A stretch of DNA of 64,000 nt from Ndongobacter massiliensis. Its GTDB lineage: Bacteria; Bacillota; Clostridia; Tissierellales; Peptoniphilaceae. Under the pieces are notes generated by a model, which worked only from the letters and a program-made list of their open reading frames with translations, did not search any database and was not told where the DNA came from. The translations under genes and the position numbers were made by a program. Numbering within the stretch: position 1 is the first letter of the stretch; every line of letters begins with the position of its first letter. Where the stretch lies: the NCBI RefSeq assembly GCF_900120375.1, contig NZ_LT635480.1, forward strand, positions 1,742,840 through 1,806,839, given 5' to 3'. Below are positions 858 through 36,351 of this stretch, piece by piece.

Positions 858-1472
858 TCAAAAAGCGATGCGGTTTGGAATGGAGATGACATGGTCTACC
901 GGAAAAGCTCCGCCCTCCTGTTCATGGCTGACAAATACGACCGTCTTCCCATGAAGAAACCGCTGCGTCTGTTCCATCACCAATTTTTTACAATCGGGAT
1001 CGAGATGGGCAAAGGGCTCATCGAGCAGCAGCAGATCCCAGTCGCTGAGCAGGGCACGCAACAGAGCGACGCGGCGTTTCATGCCACCCGACAATGTGGA
1101 AACGGGGGTGTCGGAAAGGCCGGAAAGGCCGAAAGAGGCCAAGGCAATTTCCGAATCAGCGGCGGAAATCGGGGCAACAAGGCGAAAATTATCAATGACG
1201 CGCAGCTCCTCTACCAGCCGGTTTTCCTGAAAAACAAAGGCAATTTTACGCGTGGAAAGGGCGCTTTGCGGCGAGCTCCGGGGGAAACGGTCATCGTAAA
1301 TTTTGCCGGAATCCATACATTCCAGCCCGGCGATCAAGCGTAAAAGGGTGGTCTTCCCACAGCCGGAGGGACCGAACAATTGCGTAGTTTTTCCTTCAGG
1401 AATTTCAGCGGAAAAGCGATGGAGCACCGTATGTGCGCCGTATTTTTTCGTAACTTGTGCAATGTGAATCAT
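858..1472 (-). CDS. ABC transporter ATP-binding protein (SsuB/TauB/NrtD type)
   Basis: This is the ATPase of an importer and sits on the cytoplasmic face of the permease encoded just upstream. Walker A GPSGCGKTT is at residues ~34-42, the signature LSGGMKRR at ~127-134 and Walker B LLLLDEP at ~147. At 204 residues it is shorter than the family norm (~240-260), with a compact C-terminus. The ATG at 1472 overlaps the permease stop as ATGA, indicating translational coupling. The same frame stays open far upstream, but that stretch only shadows the permease. The family handles small organic substrates such as sulfonates, nitrate or thiamine precursors; the substrate here cannot be told. Confidence 0.88.
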   Translation of the reverse strand: MIHIAQVTKKYGAHTVLHRFSAEIPEGKTTQLFGPSGCGKTTLLRLIAGLECMDSGKIYDDRFPRSSPQSALSTRKIAFVFQENRLVEELRVIDNFRLVAPISAADSEIALASFGLSGLSDTPVSTLSGGMKRRVALLRALLSDWDLLLLDEPFAHLDPDCKKLVMEQTQRFLHGKTVVFVSHEQEGGAFPVDHVISIPNRIAF

Positions 1473-2275
1473 GAAAACCTCTGCAGTCGACTTTTCAAGT
1501 GGGACAGAAGGAGTCGGTTCAGTGTTCCCCATACGTAGGCGCTGACAAGAATCCAGAGCGTCCATGCGCACAGATCGGTAAGTTCCAGATAAATTTTGCT
1601 TTGATACAGCTGTGCACCGATGGATCCGCGAATCTGTCCAATGACTTCGGCGGCGGTGCCGACCTTCCAGGATAAGCCCATGGCAATTTGTGCCGCCGCC
1701 TGATAGTAGGGGAAAATCTGCGGCACATAAATGCCGCGAATCAGGTGGGTCTTGCGCACGCGAAAGACATGACCCATTTCTAAAAGCGCAGGATCCACCG
1801 CACGCAATCCCTCGAGCAGGGTGTTGTAGAAAATCGGCAAAACCATCGCCAGAACGAGCAACACCCCCAGCGCACGACCGGAAACCCAGAAGAGTGCAAA
1901 TAGGACGAGCGAAGCAACCGGAGCAGAACGGAGGAGCAAAAGCGGAGGGGTCAGAAGGTGCTCCAACCAAGAAAAGTGCGCCGCGGGAATGGCAAGCCCG
2001 ACACCCAGCGCCTGTCCGAGAAGAAACCCGAGCAAGATACGCATCGTACTCGCACAGAGAATGGAAGAAAACGAAGGCTCGCCAAGGAGTGAAAAAAAGC
2101 GGCGAAAAACGGCAATGGGACCGGGAAAGAAAACCGGGTTATTCATCGCGCGCGCGGCAATCGCCCAGAGCAGAATCCAGCCGAGCCCTCCAAAGAACGG
2201 GGGTAAAGAACGACGGCTTTTTTGTACCGTCGTTTGAGCCTTCGCAGACTTTAAGGCAGCATCCTTACGGTTCAT
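1469..2275 (-). CDS. ABC transporter permease (SsuC/TauC type)
   Basis: This is the membrane subunit of the importer, with about six hydrophobic segments beginning near residue 28. The cytoplasmic EAA-type loop, which docks the ATPase, is recognisable as EGLRAVDPALLEMG followed by IYVPQI. I chose the ATG at 2275, 11 bases inside the end of the binding-protein gene. It gives a 268-residue protein typical of the family. An in-frame ATG at 2338 would add a charged N-terminus without a better ribosome site. It is the middle gene of the minus-strand order binding protein, permease, ATPase. Confidence 0.85.
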   Translation of the reverse strand: MNRKDAALKSAKAQTTVQKSRRSLPPFFGGLGWILLWAIAARAMNNPVFFPGPIAVFRRFFSLLGEPSFSSILCASTMRILLGFLLGQALGVGLAIPAAHFSWLEHLLTPPLLLLRSAPVASLVLFALFWVSGRALGVLLVLAMVLPIFYNTLLEGLRAVDPALLEMGHVFRVRKTHLIRGIYVPQIFPYYQAAAQIAMGLSWKVGTAAEVIGQIRGSIGAQLYQSKIYLELTDLCAWTLWILVSAYVWGTLNRLLLSHLKSRLQRFS

Positions 2276-3431
2276 AGTAAAAAGCGTCGTCCGGTTCGCT
2301 TCCGCCCACGGCTTTCGGGTTCTGTTCAAAAAGGACATGCAGATAGGCCGCGAGACCTTCCTTCATGGGTGTGCCGTCGATGTATGTGATATTGCAGAGC
2401 GGCAGCGCTTTCTCAGCGACGGTCTGCGGAACGATGTCGTAGGCGTCGATGAGCGCGGCGGCATCTGCCGGATGTGCGTTGACATAGTCGATCGAAGCAT
2501 GGTAGGTCTGCAGAAAATTTTGAACGGCATGGGGATTTTTTTCAATATATTCGCGCTGCCCGATCAGTACGCCCGTGATCAGCGTCGAAGGCGCAGTGGT
2601 TTTCGCTTGCAGTGCATTCCAAGCTTCATTCAGATCCACCGCGATGCGCAAATTTTCCGCTTTCTCTTGCGCCGCGGTGACAAAGGGCTGCGGCAGCAGC
2701 GCAACGGCGGTTTCATCTTGTAAAAGCGCCTGCAGCGCAGCGCTGTGTTCCGATTGCCAGGAAATCGTGACATCCGTATCGGGATCCAGCCCGTTCTCCG
2801 ATAGCAGATAACGCAGCACATATTCTGGCGTTGCACCCTGTCCCGAAGCGTAGATCGTTTTTCCGCGCAGGTCGGCAAAAGAATGGACGGTATCGCCATT
2901 TTCCGTCAAGTAGAGGACGCCGAGCGTGTTGACCGCTAAAACTTGGATCTTTCCCTCGGTTTTGTTATACAGCACTGCGGCTAGATTGGCCGGCACACAG
3001 GCAAGATCGACTTCTTTTTTTATAACTTTCGGAATTATTTCATCCGGGGCGCTCACAATCTCTGCGTTGGGTGCAATCACAGCGGTTGTCGGGGCAGCTG
3101 CCGCGTCGGACTCGGCAGCGGATGCTTCGTCCTTTGTCGGCGCGCCGCTTTCCGCGTCATGGAGCAGTTTGACCAATCCCATGGCCGTCGGCCCCTTGAG
3201 TGCGGCAATGCGCGGCGGGACTTCTTCCGCCGGCAATGCGCGGAGTGAATTTTCCGCGACGGATTTGGTTGTGGAAGCGGGATCCGTCTCCACAGAGGAT
3301 GCCGCGGACGACGCAGAGGACGAGGCGGAAGATTCCGACGACGCCGGCGCAGCCTGCCCGCAGGCGCTGAAAAGCAAAAGACCGGCGAGAAGCCACGCGG
3401 TCGGTTTGGACATAAAAGTTTTATATTGCAT
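2265..3431 (-). CDS. ABC transporter substrate-binding lipoprotein (NMT1/SsuA-like)
   Basis: This is the extracytoplasmic receptor of the importer. The signal peptide ends in a lipobox (LLFSAC, Cys ~24) followed by a Ser/Ala-rich linker to about residue 55. The mature domain contains KGPTAMG near its start and a DLRGKTIYASGQG-type segment, as in type-II periplasmic binding proteins of the NMT1/ABC-sulfonate family. A ribosome site (AAAGAGG) stands 8 bases before the ATG at 3431. It is the first gene of a three-gene operon. The ligand is unknown; no thiamine riboswitch or other leader is visible upstream. Confidence 0.85.
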   Translation of the reverse strand: MQYKTFMSKPTAWLLAGLLLFSACGQAAPASSESSASSSASSAASSVETDPASTTKSVAENSLRALPAEEVPPRIAALKGPTAMGLVKLLHDAESGAPTKDEASAAESDAAAAPTTAVIAPNAEIVSAPDEIIPKVIKKEVDLACVPANLAAVLYNKTEGKIQVLAVNTLGVLYLTENGDTVHSFADLRGKTIYASGQGATPEYVLRYLLSENGLDPDTDVTISWQSEHSAALQALLQDETAVALLPQPFVTAAQEKAENLRIAVDLNEAWNALQAKTTAPSTLITGVLIGQREYIEKNPHAVQNFLQTYHASIDYVNAHPADAAALIDAYDIVPQTVAEKALPLCNITYIDGTPMKEGLAAYLHVLFEQNPKAVGGSEPDDAFYYEP

Positions 3432-3508
3432 GAATGCCTCTTTCTAAATCACGAATCATGGGAATAGGGTTATTTTATCACAACAAGGTTGGTGAAAAGC
3501 GGGATGGA

Positions 3509-3537
3509 TTGACTTCTTTCAGCTTTGGAATTACCAT
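3509..3537 (+). promoter_or_regulatory. Candidate promoter for the MacB-type ABC pair
   Basis: TTGACT, 17 bases, then TACCAT lies about 85 bases before the ATPase start in the 190-base divergent gap between the importer and exporter operons. The -10 match is only 4 of 6, so this is tentative. No other structure stood out in the gap. Confidence 0.25.
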
Positions 3538-3621
3538 AAGCTAACAAAATTATATCAAAATCTTAAAGTGATGACAAAACGCGTATCAAAATTTTTAGGC
3601 AAGGAGTGACGGGGGCGTGCC

Positions 3622-4317
3622 ATGATAAAAATTCAGAAGCTGCAGAAAGTGTATATGCAAGGCGATCAGCGTGTTGAGGTTTTGAAAGGACTGGATCTTA
3701 CGATCCCGGACGGCGAATTGGTTTGCTTGCTCGGTCCCTCCGGCTCGGGCAAGTCCACGCTGTTGAATATCCTGGGCGGTATTGAATCGTTGGATGCGGG
3801 GACGGTGGAAGTGGGCGGCGCTTCCCTTGGGACATTGAATAAAAAGGCGCTGAGCCTGTATCGGCGAAAAAATGTCGGCTTTGTCTTTCAATTCTATAAT
3901 TTAATCAGCAATCTCAATGTACAGGAAAATATTGAGGTGGGGGCGTATTTGTCGAATGCACCATTAGACGTAGAAGAAATGATGGATGCATTGGGACTCC
4001 AGGAACAAAAGAAAAAATATCCAAATCAAATTTCCGGCGGACAGGCGCAGCGCACGTCGATTGCCAGGGCTATGGTGAAAAATCCGTCGCTATTGATTTG
4101 TGATGAGCCTACGGGAGCATTGGATTATGAAAGCGCTAAAAATGTTTTAGTTCGGATCGAAAAGTTGAAAGAGACCTATCATCCCATCATTATTATTGCG
4201 ACACATAATGCACAAATTGCCAAAATGTGCACGACAATTATTCGCTTGCACAATGGGACGATTCAGTGCGTCGAACACACGGAACACCCGCTTGCCGCGG
4301 AGGAGATTGTATGGTGA
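3622..4317 (+). CDS. ABC transporter ATP-binding protein (MacB/LolD family)
   Basis: This is the cytoplasmic ATPase of a mechanotransmission-type ABC system. Walker A GPSGSGKST is at ~38-46, the signature ISGGQAQRT at ~137 and Walker B LLICDEPTGALD at ~155; length is 231 residues. A GGGGG ribosome site lies 6 bases before the ATG. The following permease gene overlaps by 7 bases. These pairs usually power peptide or lipoprotein handling, antibiotic resistance or envelope signalling rather than bulk transport. No sensor kinase or regulator is adjacent to narrow the role. Confidence 0.92.
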   Translation: MIKIQKLQKVYMQGDQRVEVLKGLDLTIPDGELVCLLGPSGSGKSTLLNILGGIESLDAGTVEVGGASLGTLNKKALSLYRRKNVGFVFQFYNLISNLNVQENIEVGAYLSNAPLDVEEMMDALGLQEQKKKYPNQISGGQAQRTSIARAMVKNPSLLICDEPTGALDYESAKNVLVRIEKLKETYHPIIIIATHNAQIAKMCTTIIRLHNGTIQCVEHTEHPLAAEEIVW

Positions 4318-6563
4318 TGAGAAATCCGATTCATAAGCGTATACCGCGCTTGCTCCTTAAGGAACCCACACGCTATCTACCGCTTTTTGTATTGTTATTG
4401 GTGACCATCGTTTGCTTGTCGTCTTTTTATATTGTGCAAGGCGCCGTTGAGCAAATCTATTACGATCATCTTGAAACAGGACGCGTCGAGGATGGACAAT
4501 TTACAACGATTACTGAACTCAGCGAAGCAACTTGGGAAAAAATTGAGAAAAAAGGCGTCCGCTTATATAAAAATTTCTATGTGGAGGCGGAGGATGGGGA
4601 GGCCACGCTCAATCTTTACGCCGTGCGCAAAGCGGTCAATTTGCCCACGGTGATTGCAGGGCGATTACCGGAAGCGGCGGATGAGATTGCCCTCGATGAA
4701 AATTATACAAGCGCCCATGGATACCACGTAGGTGATTCCATAACTGTAGGAGATCAGCGGTTTCAACTTGTCGGGACCGTTGTTTTGCCGGATTATATCG
4801 CCATGATGAAGAACCGCAATGACCTAGTGATGGATACAATGAATTTCGGTGTGGGACTTGTCAGCGATGCCGGCTTTCAGCGTTTTTCCGACAAGGGAAT
4901 TCAATACAATTACGCCTACCTCGAAGAGAAAAAATCGGCCGATAAAAAAGAAGCCAATGACAAGCTCAAGGAGCTTACCAAACTCGTTTATGAGGACAAT
5001 ATCTTAACCGACGCTATGACCCGCGCACAAAACAATCGGATTGCCTACTTGCTAGACGATATGAGCGGGGATGTTCCGATGATGCACATGGTATTACTTT
5101 TGGCTATGGTGTCGATAGCCTTTGTTTTTACGATGCAGACGCGGAATTTGATCGAATCCGAATCCGGTGTGATCGGGACGTTGATGGCCTCGGGGTACAG
5201 CAAGTGGGAATTGTTGCGCCATTATATGCTCTTGCCTTTGCTGGCGGTTCTGCTGGCATCACTCATCGGCAATATTCTTGCCTACACAAAATTGTATAAA
5301 ATGTATGAGGGAATGTATTATAGTTCTTTTTCCTTGCCGCCCTTTACACCATTTTTTCATCTGCGCGCCTTTTTATTAACGACATTGATCCCTGCCGTCG
5401 TGATACTGCTGATCAATTTGTTTATGCTGTTAAAAATGTTGACAATTTCTCCCCTGCGCTTTTTGCGCAAGGATTGGGGAAAGAAGATGCATACAATGGC
5501 GATTGATTTGCCGAAACTGCCTTTTTTAACCCGCTATCGTTTGAAAGTTTTGCGCAACAATAAAGGAAACGTATTTGTTCTACTTTTTGGGGTCACGCTT
5601 GCCAGCATCTTTCTCTGCTTCGGATTGGGAATGCGTCCGATTTTTGAAGCGCATACGAAAAGTATAATGGAGGAGTTGCCGGCGAATGTGCAAACCTATG
5701 TGCGGGAATCTGACGAAGCCGTTGACGGAGAAAAATTTGGTGCAGCGTCTTTTGAGCTTGTTATCGATGGAACGACTCACTCATTTGTACTACAGGGTAT
5801 TTCCGAGCATAGTCGCTATTTTCCGGAGCATTTGCTGACGGGTTTGAAAGAAAATGAAATCGCCGCTTCCGAGGGTTTATTGGAAAAATTTCAACTCAAT
5901 GTCGGCGACGGGATTGAAGTCGTCAACCCCTACACGGCGGAGCGATACGAATTTACGATTCGAACGGTCCGGAGCGGCGCGGTAAGTTTGTCCGCATATA
6001 TGCCGTTAAAAGCGTTCAATACGGTCATGGGTTATGCCCCGGAGTATTTCTCGGGCTACTATTCCGATCAGAAATTAAACTTGGATGAAAAAAATGTCGT
6101 CACCCGCGTCGATCGTGAGACAATCGGACAAGTAGCAAAGCATTTTTTGGATAATTTCGGTGCAATTAGTGGACCGATTGTATTCATTTCGATCCTCTTC
6201 TATTTTGTTTTTATCTATTTGTTGGCGAAAGCGATTGTCGAAAAATCCAAGACGGACATCTCTTATTTGAAAATATTCGGTTTTACAGATCGGGAAAGCA
6301 CCCGTATTTATCTACATGCGACAGGAATTATTTTAGGTTTTTATCTATTGTTACTGCCGATACTGCTTCAAAAACTTATGGTCATTCTACTCCGTGTTGC
6401 CTTGCAAAAATTCGACGCCTATATGGCGCCGGTTTTGCCGTCCTACGTGTATCTCATTGCGATGGGCACAGGATTTATTTTATTTATCCTTGTGCAATAT
6501 TTACAGATGCGAAAGATTGCAAAGATCAACATGGCGGAAGTGTTAAAAGAAGTCTGCGGATGA
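4311..6563 (+). CDS. FtsX/MacB-type ABC permease with two FtsX units
   Basis: This is a 750-residue membrane partner of the preceding ATPase. One N-terminal transmembrane helix (~24-46) precedes an extracytoplasmic region of ~240 residues. Three helices form the first FtsX unit. Another helix near ~440 leads to a second extracytoplasmic domain, and three C-terminal helices form the second FtsX unit. The start is ATG 4311, or ATG 4317 two codons later; GGAGG at 4299-4303 fits either. No family-specific substrate motif was recognised. Antimicrobial-peptide resistance and lipoprotein release are both possible. Confidence 0.88.
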   Translation: MVMRNPIHKRIPRLLLKEPTRYLPLFVLLLVTIVCLSSFYIVQGAVEQIYYDHLETGRVEDGQFTTITELSEATWEKIEKKGVRLYKNFYVEAEDGEATLNLYAVRKAVNLPTVIAGRLPEAADEIALDENYTSAHGYHVGDSITVGDQRFQLVGTVVLPDYIAMMKNRNDLVMDTMNFGVGLVSDAGFQRFSDKGIQYNYAYLEEKKSADKKEANDKLKELTKLVYEDNILTDAMTRAQNNRIAYLLDDMSGDVPMMHMVLLLAMVSIAFVFTMQTRNLIESESGVIGTLMASGYSKWELLRHYMLLPLLAVLLASLIGNILAYTKLYKMYEGMYYSSFSLPPFTPFFHLRAFLLTTLIPAVVILLINLFMLLKMLTISPLRFLRKDWGKKMHTMAIDLPKLPFLTRYRLKVLRNNKGNVFVLLFGVTLASIFLCFGLGMRPIFEAHTKSIMEELPANVQTYVRESDEAVDGEKFGAASFELVIDGTTHSFVLQGISEHSRYFPEHLLTGLKENEIAASEGLLEKFQLNVGDGIEVVNPYTAERYEFTIRTVRSGAVSLSAYMPLKAFNTVMGYAPEYFSGYYSDQKLNLDEKNVVTRVDRETIGQVAKHFLDNFGAISGPIVFISILFYFVFIYLLAKAIVEKSKTDISYLKIFGFTDRESTRIYLHATGIILGFYLLLLPILLQKLMVILLRVALQKFDAYMAPVLPSYVYLIAMGTGFILFILVQYLQMRKIAKINMAEVLKEVCG

Positions 6564-33374: not shown

Positions 33375-33884
33375 TTGATTCCTGCTTTTATCTGTGACTT
33401 CCTTTGCATTCATCCTTTTAATGATGGGAATGGAAGGATGAGCAGACTTCTCACACTTCTTCTTTTGTATAAGAACGGCTATAAAATAGGAAAATACATC
33501 AGTATTGAAAGACAGATAGAGAAAACAAAAGACAGATATTATGACACCCTTGAAGAAGCCGACGCAGGATGGCACGAAGAAAAAAACGATCCGACTCCTT
33601 TTATCAGGTACATGTTGCAGGTGATCTTAGCTTGCTACATAGAATTTGAAGAAAGAGTCGGATTGATGGCAGAACATGGGGGTGGAAGTACCGCATACGA
33701 TATCGTCAAGCATTATGTAGAGGCCAAAATCGGCAAGTTTACCGGGGCAGAAGTTATGGCAAACTGTCCGAGTATCGGAAGGTCCTCTGTACTTGCCTCA
33801 TTAAAGCAACTTACGGAAGAAGGACTTATTCTTCGCGAAGGAGCAGGAAGAAGTACATTTTATGTTCGTGCGGACTATAAATAA
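33375..33884 (+). pseudogene. Fic-domain protein, 5'-truncated remnant
   Basis: About 169 codons match the C-terminal half of a Fic AMP/nucleotidyl-transferase. They open in the middle of the Fic core (IPAFICDFLC) and include the complete active-site loop HPFNDGNGR, then the helical tail and a winged-helix-like end. The first ~200 residues expected for the family are missing, and the DNA before 33375 does not encode them. The apparent start is a TTG without a ribosome site. The DNA is more AT-rich than its neighbours, suggesting acquisition and decay. A short translated fragment cannot be excluded. Confidence 0.72.
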
Positions 33885-33958: not shown

Positions 33959-35221
33959 TCATGAGCCTTCGTATAGGCATGACTCTGAGAATAGCCTAAC
34001 AGGTATTTCAAATTCACTTCGATCGGCGGGGAGTTTGGTTTCTTCAAAGAGCGAAGCAAAGGAGATCGCGTGCTTTCCAAAGCGCTCACGCAGCGCATAG
34101 AGGGCGGCATCGAGATCTTCTTTTTTTTGCCTCTGCGAAAAGGCGGACAGAAAACCGAGCTGGCGGTACGTTCGCAGGGGGCGCAGGTGAATGGCGCGAA
34201 TGGTAAGGGCACGTACTGGTTTTTGCCAATCGTATCGCTCGGTAAACAGCGCCATTCCCGCTTCGCGAAGAAGGAGGGAGCTTTGCGTCGGCAGGGCAAG
34301 TAAGGTTTGAAATTGACGTGTGTAAAGATCACAATCGCGCACGGAAAGCTGAACACCGCTGGCTTCGAGCCCGTGTTCCCGCAGGCGTTGGGACACCGAG
34401 AAACACAGCACCTGCAGAACGCGCAGGACTTCGGCATTGTCGACGAGATCCGCGCGGCAGGTTACGCCGCGTCCGACGGACCGGATGGGTGCGCGGTATT
34501 GCACATTGTGTACGGGATCGGCGTCCCGGCCGTTCGCGTGATGCCAGAGCAAAATACCCGACACGCCCAAGATTTTTCGAAGAAAATGCGGATCGCTTCC
34601 GGCAAGATCGCCCAGTGTACAAATGCCGCAGGCGCACAGCTTGCGGCGCGTAGATCCGCCGACGCCCAGCATGTTTTCCACGGGAAGCGGATCGAGGATT
34701 TGTCGGAATCGATCGCGTGGAATTTCCGTCACCGCATCGGGTTTCTTTAAGTCGCTGCCGAGTTTCGCAAAAGTTTTGTTGAAACTGACGCCGACACTTA
34801 CCGTAATGCCCAGTTCTTTTTTGATGCGGCATCGAATGTCATCGGCAATGGTACGTCCATTCCCGAAGAGTTTTTGGGAGCCGGTCACATCCATCCAGCA
34901 CTCATCCATTCCGAAGGGCTCGACAAGATCGGTGTAGCGGGCGTACAGGGCGCGAGCCCGGCGCGAATAGTCGAGATACATTTCGTAATGCGGCGGCACG
35001 ATAAGCAGATCGGGGCACTTCGTCAGCGCCTGCCCGACGGGTTCGCCGGTTTTGACACCGAAGCGCTTTGCTTCCTGTGATTTTGCCAATACAATGCCGT
35101 GCCGATCTTCCTGCGATCCGCAGACAGCGAGTGGGAAACCGCGCCACTGCGGATGGTGGTGAATTTCGATCGAAGCGTAGCAATTGTTCATATCAGCGTG
35201 AAGAATGACGCGGTCTTCCAT
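33959..35221 (-). CDS. Y-family DNA polymerase (UmuC/DinB-like)
   Basis: This is a predicted error-prone translesion polymerase of ~420 residues. Catalytic carboxylates lie in HADMNNCYAS near the N-terminus and in GMDECWMDVT (~105). Palm/fingers, a helix-hairpin-helix thumb (LGVGGSTRRKL) and a little-finger domain follow. No C-terminal beta-clamp peptide is obvious. I favour ATG 35221 behind AAAAGG, but ATG 35239 is also in frame. It is divergent from the XRE/ImmA pair and shares its control region. Its promoter is overlapped by repeated GCAACT sites, so repression by that XRE protein is likely (inference). Confidence 0.88.
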   Translation of the reverse strand: MEDRVILHADMNNCYASIEIHHHPQWRGFPLAVCGSQEDRHGIVLAKSQEAKRFGVKTGEPVGQALTKCPDLLIVPPHYEMYLDYSRRARALYARYTDLVEPFGMDECWMDVTGSQKLFGNGRTIADDIRCRIKKELGITVSVGVSFNKTFAKLGSDLKKPDAVTEIPRDRFRQILDPLPVENMLGVGGSTRRKLCACGICTLGDLAGSDPHFLRKILGVSGILLWHHANGRDADPVHNVQYRAPIRSVGRGVTCRADLVDNAEVLRVLQVLCFSVSQRLREHGLEASGVQLSVRDCDLYTRQFQTLLALPTQSSLLLREAGMALFTERYDWQKPVRALTIRAIHLRPLRTYRQLGFLSAFSQRQKKEDLDAALYALRERFGKHAISFASLFEETKLPADRSEFEIPVRLFSESCLYEGS

Positions 35222-35283
35222 GAACATGAGCCTTTTCATACGCTGTTCAGCGTTGACAAATGCCCCCTTTCCCTGTAAAATAA

Positions 35284-35360
35284 AAGCAACTGAATTGCTT
35301 GTTTAGGAAAATTATACGCAACTTAATAGAAAAATGCAACTGAAAAGGCAATTGAGTTGC
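35284..35360. promoter_or_regulatory. Four GCAACTnAA operator-like repeats in the divergent control region
   Basis: Copies are at 35286-35294 (GCAACTGAA), 35318-35326 (GCAACTTAA), 35336-35344 (GCAACTGAA) and inverted at 35352-35360 (GCAACTCAA on the minus strand). The first is part of the dyad AAGCAA-CTGAA-TTGCTT; the last two face each other as an inverted pair. Copy 2 lies in the polymerase promoter spacer and copy 3 overlaps its -35. They are the probable binding sites of the adjacent XRE repressor. Confidence 0.7.
35311..35339 (-). promoter_or_regulatory. Promoter of the Y-family polymerase
   Basis: On the minus strand TTGCAT (35334-35339), a 17-base spacer and a perfect TATAAT (35311-35316) lie ~90 bases before the polymerase start. 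Two GCAACT repeats overlap it. For the opposite gene only a weak TTGTTT(18)TTAATA is visible around 35299-35328. Confidence 0.72.
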
Positions 35361-35380
35361 GCATAAAGAAGGGAGAGACG

Positions 35381-35788
35381 ATGCGATTTGGAGAAAAACT
35401 GAAAAAATTGCGAGAAGAACGAGGTATGACGCAGCAGGAATTTGCCGATGCCGTGGGGGTTTCTCTGCGCACCGTCGGCAACTATGAAAAAGAAGGAAGG
35501 CTTCCGCGTTATCGCAGCGTGTACGAAAAGATCGCCGCGCTGTTCGGGGTCAGTGTGACCTATCTTTTGAGCGATGCCGATGATTTTATATTGACGGCGG
35601 GGGAACAATATGGCGCGCGCGGTGCGGAGCAGGCGCGGGACTTGGTGCAGAGTATGGTCGGTCTGATGGCGGGCGGCAATCTGCCGGACGAAGATAAAAA
35701 GGCAATTTTGGATGCCTTGCAGGAGGCCTATTACTTTTCAAAAAAAGAAAATCAAAAGTACGCTTCTGCAGAAAAGAAAGGTCGCTGA
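35381..35788 (+). CDS. XRE-family helix-turn-helix repressor (ImmR-like)
   Basis: This 135-residue regulator has an N-terminal Cro/CI-type helix-turn-helix at ~5-58 (MTQQEFADAVGVSLRTVGNYEKEGRLPR). The acidic/helical C-terminal ~70 residues are likely the oligomerisation and protease-sensitive part. GGGAGA precedes the ATG. Its stop shares a base with the next gene (TGATG). The pairing with an ImmA/IrrE protease mirrors ImmR-ImmA of ICEBs1 and DdrO-IrrE of Deinococcus. The expected role is to repress its own and the divergent promoter until cleaved. Confidence 0.9.
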   Translation: MRFGEKLKKLREERGMTQQEFADAVGVSLRTVGNYEKEGRLPRYRSVYEKIAALFGVSVTYLLSDADDFILTAGEQYGARGAEQARDLVQSMVGLMAGGNLPDEDKKAILDALQEAYYFSKKENQKYASAEKKGR

Positions 35789-36351
35789 TGATTCGCTCCA
35801 TGCAACGGGACGTGGCGCGCCTGGTGCGACGGCACGGTACCCGTGATCCGCGGCGCCTTTTGGAGGAGCGCGGCGTACAGCTGCTGCCCATGCCGCGCGC
35901 GACGCATGTACTTGGAATGTATACGGTGTTGCTGCGCAATCGCTTTGTTTTCTATAATGCGAATTTGGACGATGCGATTTTGCGTATGGTATTTGCCCAC
36001 GAATTGGGACATGATTGTTATCATCGCCGGCAGGCGGCGCAGGATCTTCCACCGGATCTTTCTCTGACGGGAGCGCGTTCGCGTCTGGAAACAGAGGCGA
36101 ATTGCTTTGCTGCTTACCTCCTTATAGAAGAGGATGAGCTTTTCGAGGGCATTCGGGAGCGGGAAACGATCGGAGAGTTGGCGACCCGTTTTCGCGTAGA
36201 TGAGAGTCTGATTATTTATCGCTTGCGGGAATTGCAGAAGGAGCAGCGTCCGGATGTTCCCCTTTTCCTGACCGAAGAAGCGGAGCCGAACTTTTTTCGG
36301 GCAATTGATGGACGTAATCCCCTCTATTGGGCGCCGGAAAATCGCGATTGA
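35788..36351 (+). CDS. ImmA/IrrE-family metallopeptidase
   Basis: This 187-residue protein is predicted to be a zinc peptidase. The catalytic motif HELGH is at 71-75, with ETEANCFAAYLL ~30 residues later supplying the third ligand, as in COG2856. The C-terminal third is short and helical, without the GAF-like domain of Deinococcus IrrE. The start overlaps the XRE stop, so the two are translationally coupled. Family members inactivate their cognate XRE repressor by site-specific cleavage after DNA damage or an equivalent signal. Cleavage of the upstream partner here is inferred. Confidence 0.9.
   Translation: MIRSMQRDVARLVRRHGTRDPRRLLEERGVQLLPMPRATHVLGMYTVLLRNRFVFYNANLDDAILRMVFAHELGHDCYHRRQAAQDLPPDLSLTGARSRLETEANCFAAYLLIEEDELFEGIRERETIGELATRFRVDESLIIYRLRELQKEQRPDVPLFLTEEAEPNFFRAIDGRNPLYWAPENRD

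Follow-up and report, generated by a model that had tools for sequence, protein, structure and literature searches.

Here we describe a three-gene locus in a 64,000-nucleotide stretch of the Ndongobacter massiliensis genome (contig NZ_LT635480.1, positions 1,742,840 to 1,806,839; hereafter the window), where genes for a small XRE-family protein and an ImmA/IrrE-like M78 metallopeptidase (ImmA) lie divergent from a gene for a Y-family DNA polymerase. We consider it likely that this cassette works as a stand-alone derepression switch controlling translesion synthesis, in which XRE represses, activated ImmA cuts XRE, and the polymerase is induced. Strong comparative evidence argues that XRE binds operators in the gap between the operons and holds down its own operon as well as the polymerase, because 13-bp dyads are positioned within the 17 bp that separate the -10 and -35 of the polymerase promoter and at the start of XRE's own promoter.

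In the proposed mechanism, an XRE dimer would occupy the 13-bp dyads. The co-translated ImmA, once activated, would cut XRE in the loop that follows GL[FM]AGG, a conserved motif of the C-terminal domain. The amount of functional repressor would fall, and expression of the polymerase would rise together with that of the XRE-ImmA operon until newly made XRE returned the switch to its repressed state. We infer this cleavage and joint induction by analogy with related systems. DNA damage is the most likely activating signal, though this is the least certain step. The trigger could be single-stranded DNA (ssDNA), which activates PprI and CapP (PMC10904395), or RecA, which mediates derepression of ICEBs1 after damage via ImmA (PMC6540685).

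Genes, promoters and operators of the locus

Open reading frame coordinates and domain matches (Table 1) bear out the preliminary description of an XRE gene and a HELGH metallopeptidase gene that overlap as TGATG and are divergent from an error-prone polymerase. The polymerase contains IMS and IMS_C domains, and the catalytic Asp/Asp-Glu motifs HADMNNCYASIE and MDECWMDVT can be read from its translation; by both domains and motifs it is predicted to be active. It is the only Y-family polymerase in the host genome, a single contig of 1.86 Mb. Its true start is probably the ATG at 35221 rather than 35239, because relatives open directly at (M)xRVILHxDMN and an AAAAGG lies 9 nt upstream of this ATG.

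The predicted ImmA/IrrE-type protease is likewise well supported, both by its M78 match and by residues H71, E72, G74, H75 and E101, which are invariant across 39 aligned homologues. The top fold-search match of its model (predicted local distance difference test score, pLDDT, 88) is the PprI-ssDNA complex 8sln. Peptidase_M78 is the only domain match in the 187-residue protein; a GAF-like C-terminal domain is absent, and no further domain is seen in the model. The XRE N-terminal domain matches ImmR (7t8i: profile E 9.9e-12, Foldseek rank 2), CapH (7t5u) and DdrO. Further along, the GL[FM]AGG motif is near-invariant, taking the form GLMAGG in the window protein (residues 94-99), and in the XRE model (pLDDT 89.5) it is followed by a loop that connects two long helices of the C-terminal part. 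This loop is a likely candidate for the cleavage site, because cleavage of DdrO falls in the loop joining its final two helices (PMC8072749).

The XRE and polymerase promoters are oriented towards each other, and the gap that holds them contains four copies of GCAACTnAA, at 35286, 35318 and 35336 on the plus strand and at 35352-35360 on the minus strand. Since only 37 such 9-mers occur on both strands of the host genome, with no second comparable cluster, four copies within 75 bp are far beyond chance. Two copies extend to a full 13-bp dyad, GCAA-N5-TTGC; the remaining two are half-sites. The first dyad (O1) begins 5 nt past the -10 of the XRE promoter. The positions agree with the preliminary description, which placed one copy over the polymerase -35 and one in the spacer. 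That description also called the polymerase promoter good, which is true of its perfect -10; the -35 is weak, matching the consensus at three of six positions, and the XRE promoter is the better of the two.

Elsewhere in the host genome, a third exact dyad at 1346284 lies inside a kinase-like coding gene, and one-mismatch dyads are coding or apparently coding by context translation, except for the one at 137909, between 5S-like and tRNA genes. The genome dyad scan found no promoter-located full dyad outside the locus that would extend the XRE regulon. Other XRE targets in the host genome were rejected on the coding or apparently coding position of these sites, 137909 excepted.

The flanks of the locus encode transporters, a Fic fragment, a flavodiiron protein and a CoA-enzyme activase. 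The Fic-domain protein (33375-33884) starts inside the Fic domain (profile positions 66-93 of 93) and is apparently 5'-truncated in this frame. Another XRE and M78 pair, of a different subfamily, is found elsewhere in the host genome (G000:C1:143799; L217 3680-4707, minus strand).

Table 1 Features of the XRE-ImmA-polymerase locus, in window positions.
Feature	Position	Strand	Basis
Y-family DNA polymerase, PRK03103-like (PolY/DinB superfamily)	33959..35239	-	PF00817 E 3e-41, PF11799
XRE-ImmA promoter, TTGACA-17-TAAAAT	35253..35281	+	sequence; relatives
Operator O1, putative full dyad GCAACTGAATTGC, at XRE transcription start	35286..35298	.	matching position after -10 in relatives
Polymerase promoter: -10 TATAAT 35316 to 35311, 17-bp spacer, -35 TTGCAT 35339 to 35334	35311..35339	-	
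Operator O2, putative half-site GCAACTTAATAGA, in polymerase promoter spacer, where relatives hold a 13-bp dyad	35318..35330	.	
Operator O3, putative half-site GCAACTGAA, over polymerase -35	35336..35344	.	
Operator O4, putative full dyad GCAATTGAGTTGC, upstream of polymerase -35, in XRE 5' leader	35348..35360	.	
XRE predicted repressor, 135 aa, recognition helix SLRTVGNYE	35381..35788	+	HTH_3 E 9e-13
ImmA/IrrE-like M78 metallopeptidase, HELGH, 187 aa	35788..36351	+	Peptidase_M78 PF06114 E 1.7e-13

Conservation of the cassette and its operators

Tissierella loci (L044, L045) group beside a genome of the same order as the host, in keeping with Tissierellales as the order and, probably, Peptoniphilaceae as the family. 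Of 130 family genomes, 81 encode ImmA (E<=1e-6), and we retrieved and re-annotated 90 XRE-ImmA loci. The three-gene arrangement recurs in these related genomes: a divergent polymerase is found at 50 of the loci, mostly in one Tissierellales family. Ten more carry a different Y-polymerase (approximately 25% identity, same broad PRK03103 group) downstream on the same strand, and one has a polymerase upstream on the same strand. Because a genome of approximately 1.8 Mb has only one or two Y-polymerases, this adjacency is far above chance, with the caveat that gene order is inherited and the loci are not independent of each other. For all three genes, the ratio of nonsynonymous to synonymous substitution rates (dN/dS) is 0.00-0.33 across 12 close species pairs, which indicates purifying selection. 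XRE-ImmA lies nearby in just 3 of 80 polymerase relatives among genome contigs (tblastn), which makes the cassette largely a trait of the Tissierellales.

Several loci depart from this layout. One (L180, G003:C3:1-9834; 1404-3867, minus strand) holds a tandem pair of Y-family polymerases divergent from a single XRE-ImmA pair. In genus g25 (L134, L137, L161; L129, L138, L142, L154, L158) XRE-ImmA is kept, and some of the polymerases are broken up into several reading frames or missing. At L160 (G019:C1:852014-862505; 2721-5914, minus strand) a RecD2 helicase gene (TIGR01448, 850 bits) follows directly after XRE-ImmA, a second DNA-repair partner for this kind of switch that was seen once.

The operator architecture is highly regular among the 50 cassettes. 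The usual polymerase promoter is TTGACA-N3-[13-bp dyad]-N-TATAAT with a 17-bp spacer, and in the XRE promoter of relatives the dyad comes immediately past the -10. In the 48 cassettes having 17-bp spacers, a single register stands out for palindromic symmetry in the outer letters of the 13-mer: offset 3 scores 3.08 of 4, against 0.7-1.4 for offsets 0, 1, 2 and 4. An unsupervised motif search returned GACA, GCAA or GAAG, sorted by XRE helix class. The helix SxKTISRYE (K..R) goes with GAC in the polymerase spacer in 29 of 29 cases, SLRT[IV]xNYE (R..N) with GCAA in 9 of 9, and xRT[IV][GV]SYE (R..S) with GAAG in 7 of 8, the eighth being a tie. Descriptively, this covariation is strong. The operators proposed in the preliminary description as common to XRE and the polymerase and controlled by XRE are thus supported, at the level of sequence, by 50 loci, exact promoter placement and covariation with the recognition helix. 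These classes also form a natural data set for how XRE repressors select DNA.

A polymerase that has moved away from the pair may also share such an element. In genus g16 the polymerase lies at least 120 kb away from XRE-ImmA, and the two promoters share 11-12 bp, GTCATTCAAGTA, just after the -10, which fits the g16 helix class. The shared length is within the largest values from shuffles, near the chance maximum, and is only suggestive of a trans-operator. Candidate trans-operators in G034, G058 and G021 were not convincing.

LexA, phage relatives and alternative explanations

Mutagenic polymerases are usually regarded as members of the LexA-RecA SOS regulon. We searched for the LexA box CGAACN4GTTCG with at most 2 mismatches within 300 bp upstream. 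It is present at 31 of 74 clostridial polymerase relatives without XRE-ImmA, where 6 are expected, and at 3 of the 50 cassette polymerases, where 2.1 are expected (no enrichment). Of 20 Y-polymerases from the same order that have no XRE-ImmA beside them, 19 have the box and the 20th has it with three mismatches, but these polymerases belong to a sister subgroup. In addition, the polymerase of one genome without ImmA (G048) falls inside the cassette clade and has a perfect LexA box. These sequences are most simply read as a replacement of LexA by XRE-ImmA as the regulator in this lineage. The window contains no match to CAAACN4GTTTG with up to 1 mismatch, and LexA does not appear to control the window polymerase. 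Since the host genome encodes LexA (G000:C1:850234, L214), the cassette works beside SOS and not in its place. The module was previously described as LexA-independent and SOS-like; the first part agrees with the lack of LexA-box enrichment at cassette polymerases, but the module coexists with SOS. The host LexA gene is itself preceded by CAAACAAATGTTTG and not by CGAACN4GTTCG, and the same is seen in several clostridial polymerase promoters. In L226 (G017:C105), from a genome where no ImmA was detected, the polymerase is divergent from an XRE-like gene and has a LexA-like box (1 mismatch) at -111, which may represent an intermediate state or a third mode of control.

All three genes are also carried, in identical orientation, by temperate gut phages, Ca. 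Heliusvirales (PV036413, PV036428, PV036429). There the polymerase is the first gene of a rightward operon that runs into early genes (exonuclease, ssDNA-annealing protein), and two of the phages have a similar operator within the polymerase promoter spacer. For example, the promoter of phage L263 is TTGACA-AAC-GCAACTCACTTGC-C-TATAAT, and its XRE is 52% identical to that of the window. Homology links the cassette to the immunity switches of phages and mobile elements, and a common origin with those of phages is likely. In trees, the bacterial cassette polymerases form their own clade, with the phage polymerases apart. Bacterial cassettes of the GAAG class have an XRE-ImmA nearer the phage ones and a polymerase of the bacterial cassette type, a mismatch that suggests regulator exchange. 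The label "mobile-element-free" given in the preliminary description therefore suits the flanks of the window locus but not this kind of cassette, which temperate gut phages carry and whose related pairs occur in serine-recombinase elements. At another group of loci (L188, L189, L203, L207-L210 and L212, with L206 similar), XRE-ImmA is divergent from a conserved protein of approximately 175-193 aa, and none of those proteins that were tested had a Pfam match; in one examined case, L208, a large serine recombinase lies nearby. These loci probably represent another mobile element using this switch.

Could the window locus itself be the immunity region of a prophage, now domesticated or decaying, and so the remnant of a temperate phage switch without a cellular role? 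The Heliusvirales gene order, the L263 spacer operator and the serine-recombinase elements all fit such an origin, but we find the idea rather improbable, as the flanks of the locus hold no phage genes, the cassette is family-wide with all three genes at low dN/dS, and its polymerases are separate from those of phages. A locus lacking function is not likely and is disfavoured. COG2856-Xre pairs have also been predicted to be toxin-antitoxin or toxin-antitoxin-like modules (PMC2701414), so that XRE could be a type II antitoxin, the COG2856 protein the toxin and the polymerase a bystander. However, the same paper reports ImmA cleaving ImmR and expects a third component, and an operator sits in the polymerase promoter of nearly all cassettes. 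Moreover, XRE-ImmA is paired with a second polymerase subfamily at ten loci, and a bystander would not be picked twice. We therefore give this explanation very little weight. A further account, that LexA-RecA SOS acts via RecA-dependent ImmA activation and the switch is a two-input side branch of SOS with no independent sensor, is possible though on balance doubtful. It is consistent with the presence of LexA in the host genome and with the need for RecA in ICEBs1 derepression through ImmA, whereas direct activation of PprI and CapP by ssDNA and the absence of a LexA box at the locus speak against it.

Some observations weigh against a dedicated XRE-ImmA-polymerase switch. The window polymerase promoter is less regular than those of its relatives, since its -35 is weak and its spacer holds no more than a half-dyad, and 43 of the 74 cassette-less relatives have no LexA box at <=2 mismatches. 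Approximately six helix-operator changes map on the ImmA tree, with only two strictly independent pairs, and because two contrasts are too few for a sign test the covariation is not significant phylogenetically. Finally, 29 of the 90 XRE-ImmA pairs have no polymerase within reach. This last count, like the service of the operators to the XRE promoter, would also suit operators used for XRE autoregulation alone, with the polymerase constitutive or otherwise controlled. That explanation seems highly unlikely, given that the dyad takes up the polymerase spacer at a single, precise register and that the distant g16 polymerase shares its element with the XRE promoter, albeit near the chance maximum.

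Taking the derepression switch as the preferred reading, a broader evolutionary account can be proposed, whose chances we put at about even. A family of host-associated anaerobes with small genomes may have moved its damage-tolerance polymerase from LexA-SOS to a phage- or mobile-type XRE-ImmA control, in at least two events and with the regulator being exchanged, thereby gaining a second damage sensor independent of SOS; gut phages would use the same switch with the polymerase as their first lytic gene. If so, the stress mutation rate could be set by a sensor separate from classical SOS, and the phage copies hint at the source of such switches and at phage use of an early translesion polymerase on induction.

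Comparison with known systems

The literature searched held no description of XRE-M78 control of a Y-family polymerase, and a survey that covers Y-family polymerases and the genes sharing their operons makes no mention of XRE, helix-turn-helix (HTH) or peptidase (PMC6511836). One close parallel in kind is ImmR-ImmA of ICEBs1 in Bacillus subtilis, where a small XRE repressor of element genes is inactivated through an M78 protease. The ImmR N-terminal domain 7t8i is among the best structural and sequence matches of the window XRE, and the window locus likewise has an M78 protease encoded in the same operon (HEXXH plus a distal Glu) and, at the level of sequence, operators common to the repressor's own and the divergent promoter. 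ImmR governs excision and transfer of the element, whereas the window XRE is predicted to govern one chromosomal polymerase outside a mobile element. DdrO-IrrE/PprI of Deinococcus is likewise a protease-relieved XRE repressor of DNA-repair genes, and the window protease fold is closest to PprI. It differs in that the window ImmA has no GAF domain and in its regulon of approximately 20 genes (radiation/desiccation response motif, RDRM) versus the one locus found here. Despite IrrE-DdrO, the Deinococcus translesion cassette is controlled by LexA and not by IrrE (PMC8072749).

CapH-CapP of the cyclic oligonucleotide-based antiphage signaling system (CBASS) also combines an XRE repressor with an ssDNA-activated protease for one operon, and CapH (7t5u) and CapP (7t5t) are among the top matches; this pair governs an immune operon and not a polymerase, and CapP is larger (291 aa). 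In the LexA-controlled Y-polymerases (Pol V, YqjW, lexA-imuAB-dnaE2), repressor proteolysis similarly switches on mutagenic synthesis, but the cassette has no LexA box and would rely on a separate protease in place of RecA-stimulated LexA self-cleavage. DdiA of Myxococcus xanthus, also an XRE regulator, acts in a damage response that is independent of LexA and has an effect on an error-prone polymerase; DdiA activates dnaE2, directly or indirectly, and the parts of the source considered here do not mention an M78 partner (PMC12288472). The immunity region of the Heliusvirales has the same genes and orientation, with the spacer operator in two phages, and there the phage early operon follows, whereas the bacterial cassette stands alone. 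The proposed window switch is therefore of a known kind, that of ImmR-ImmA, DdrO-IrrE and CapH-CapP. Its predicted dedication to a translesion polymerase is counted as new, because the literature searched describes protease-relieved XRE repressors but none for such a polymerase.

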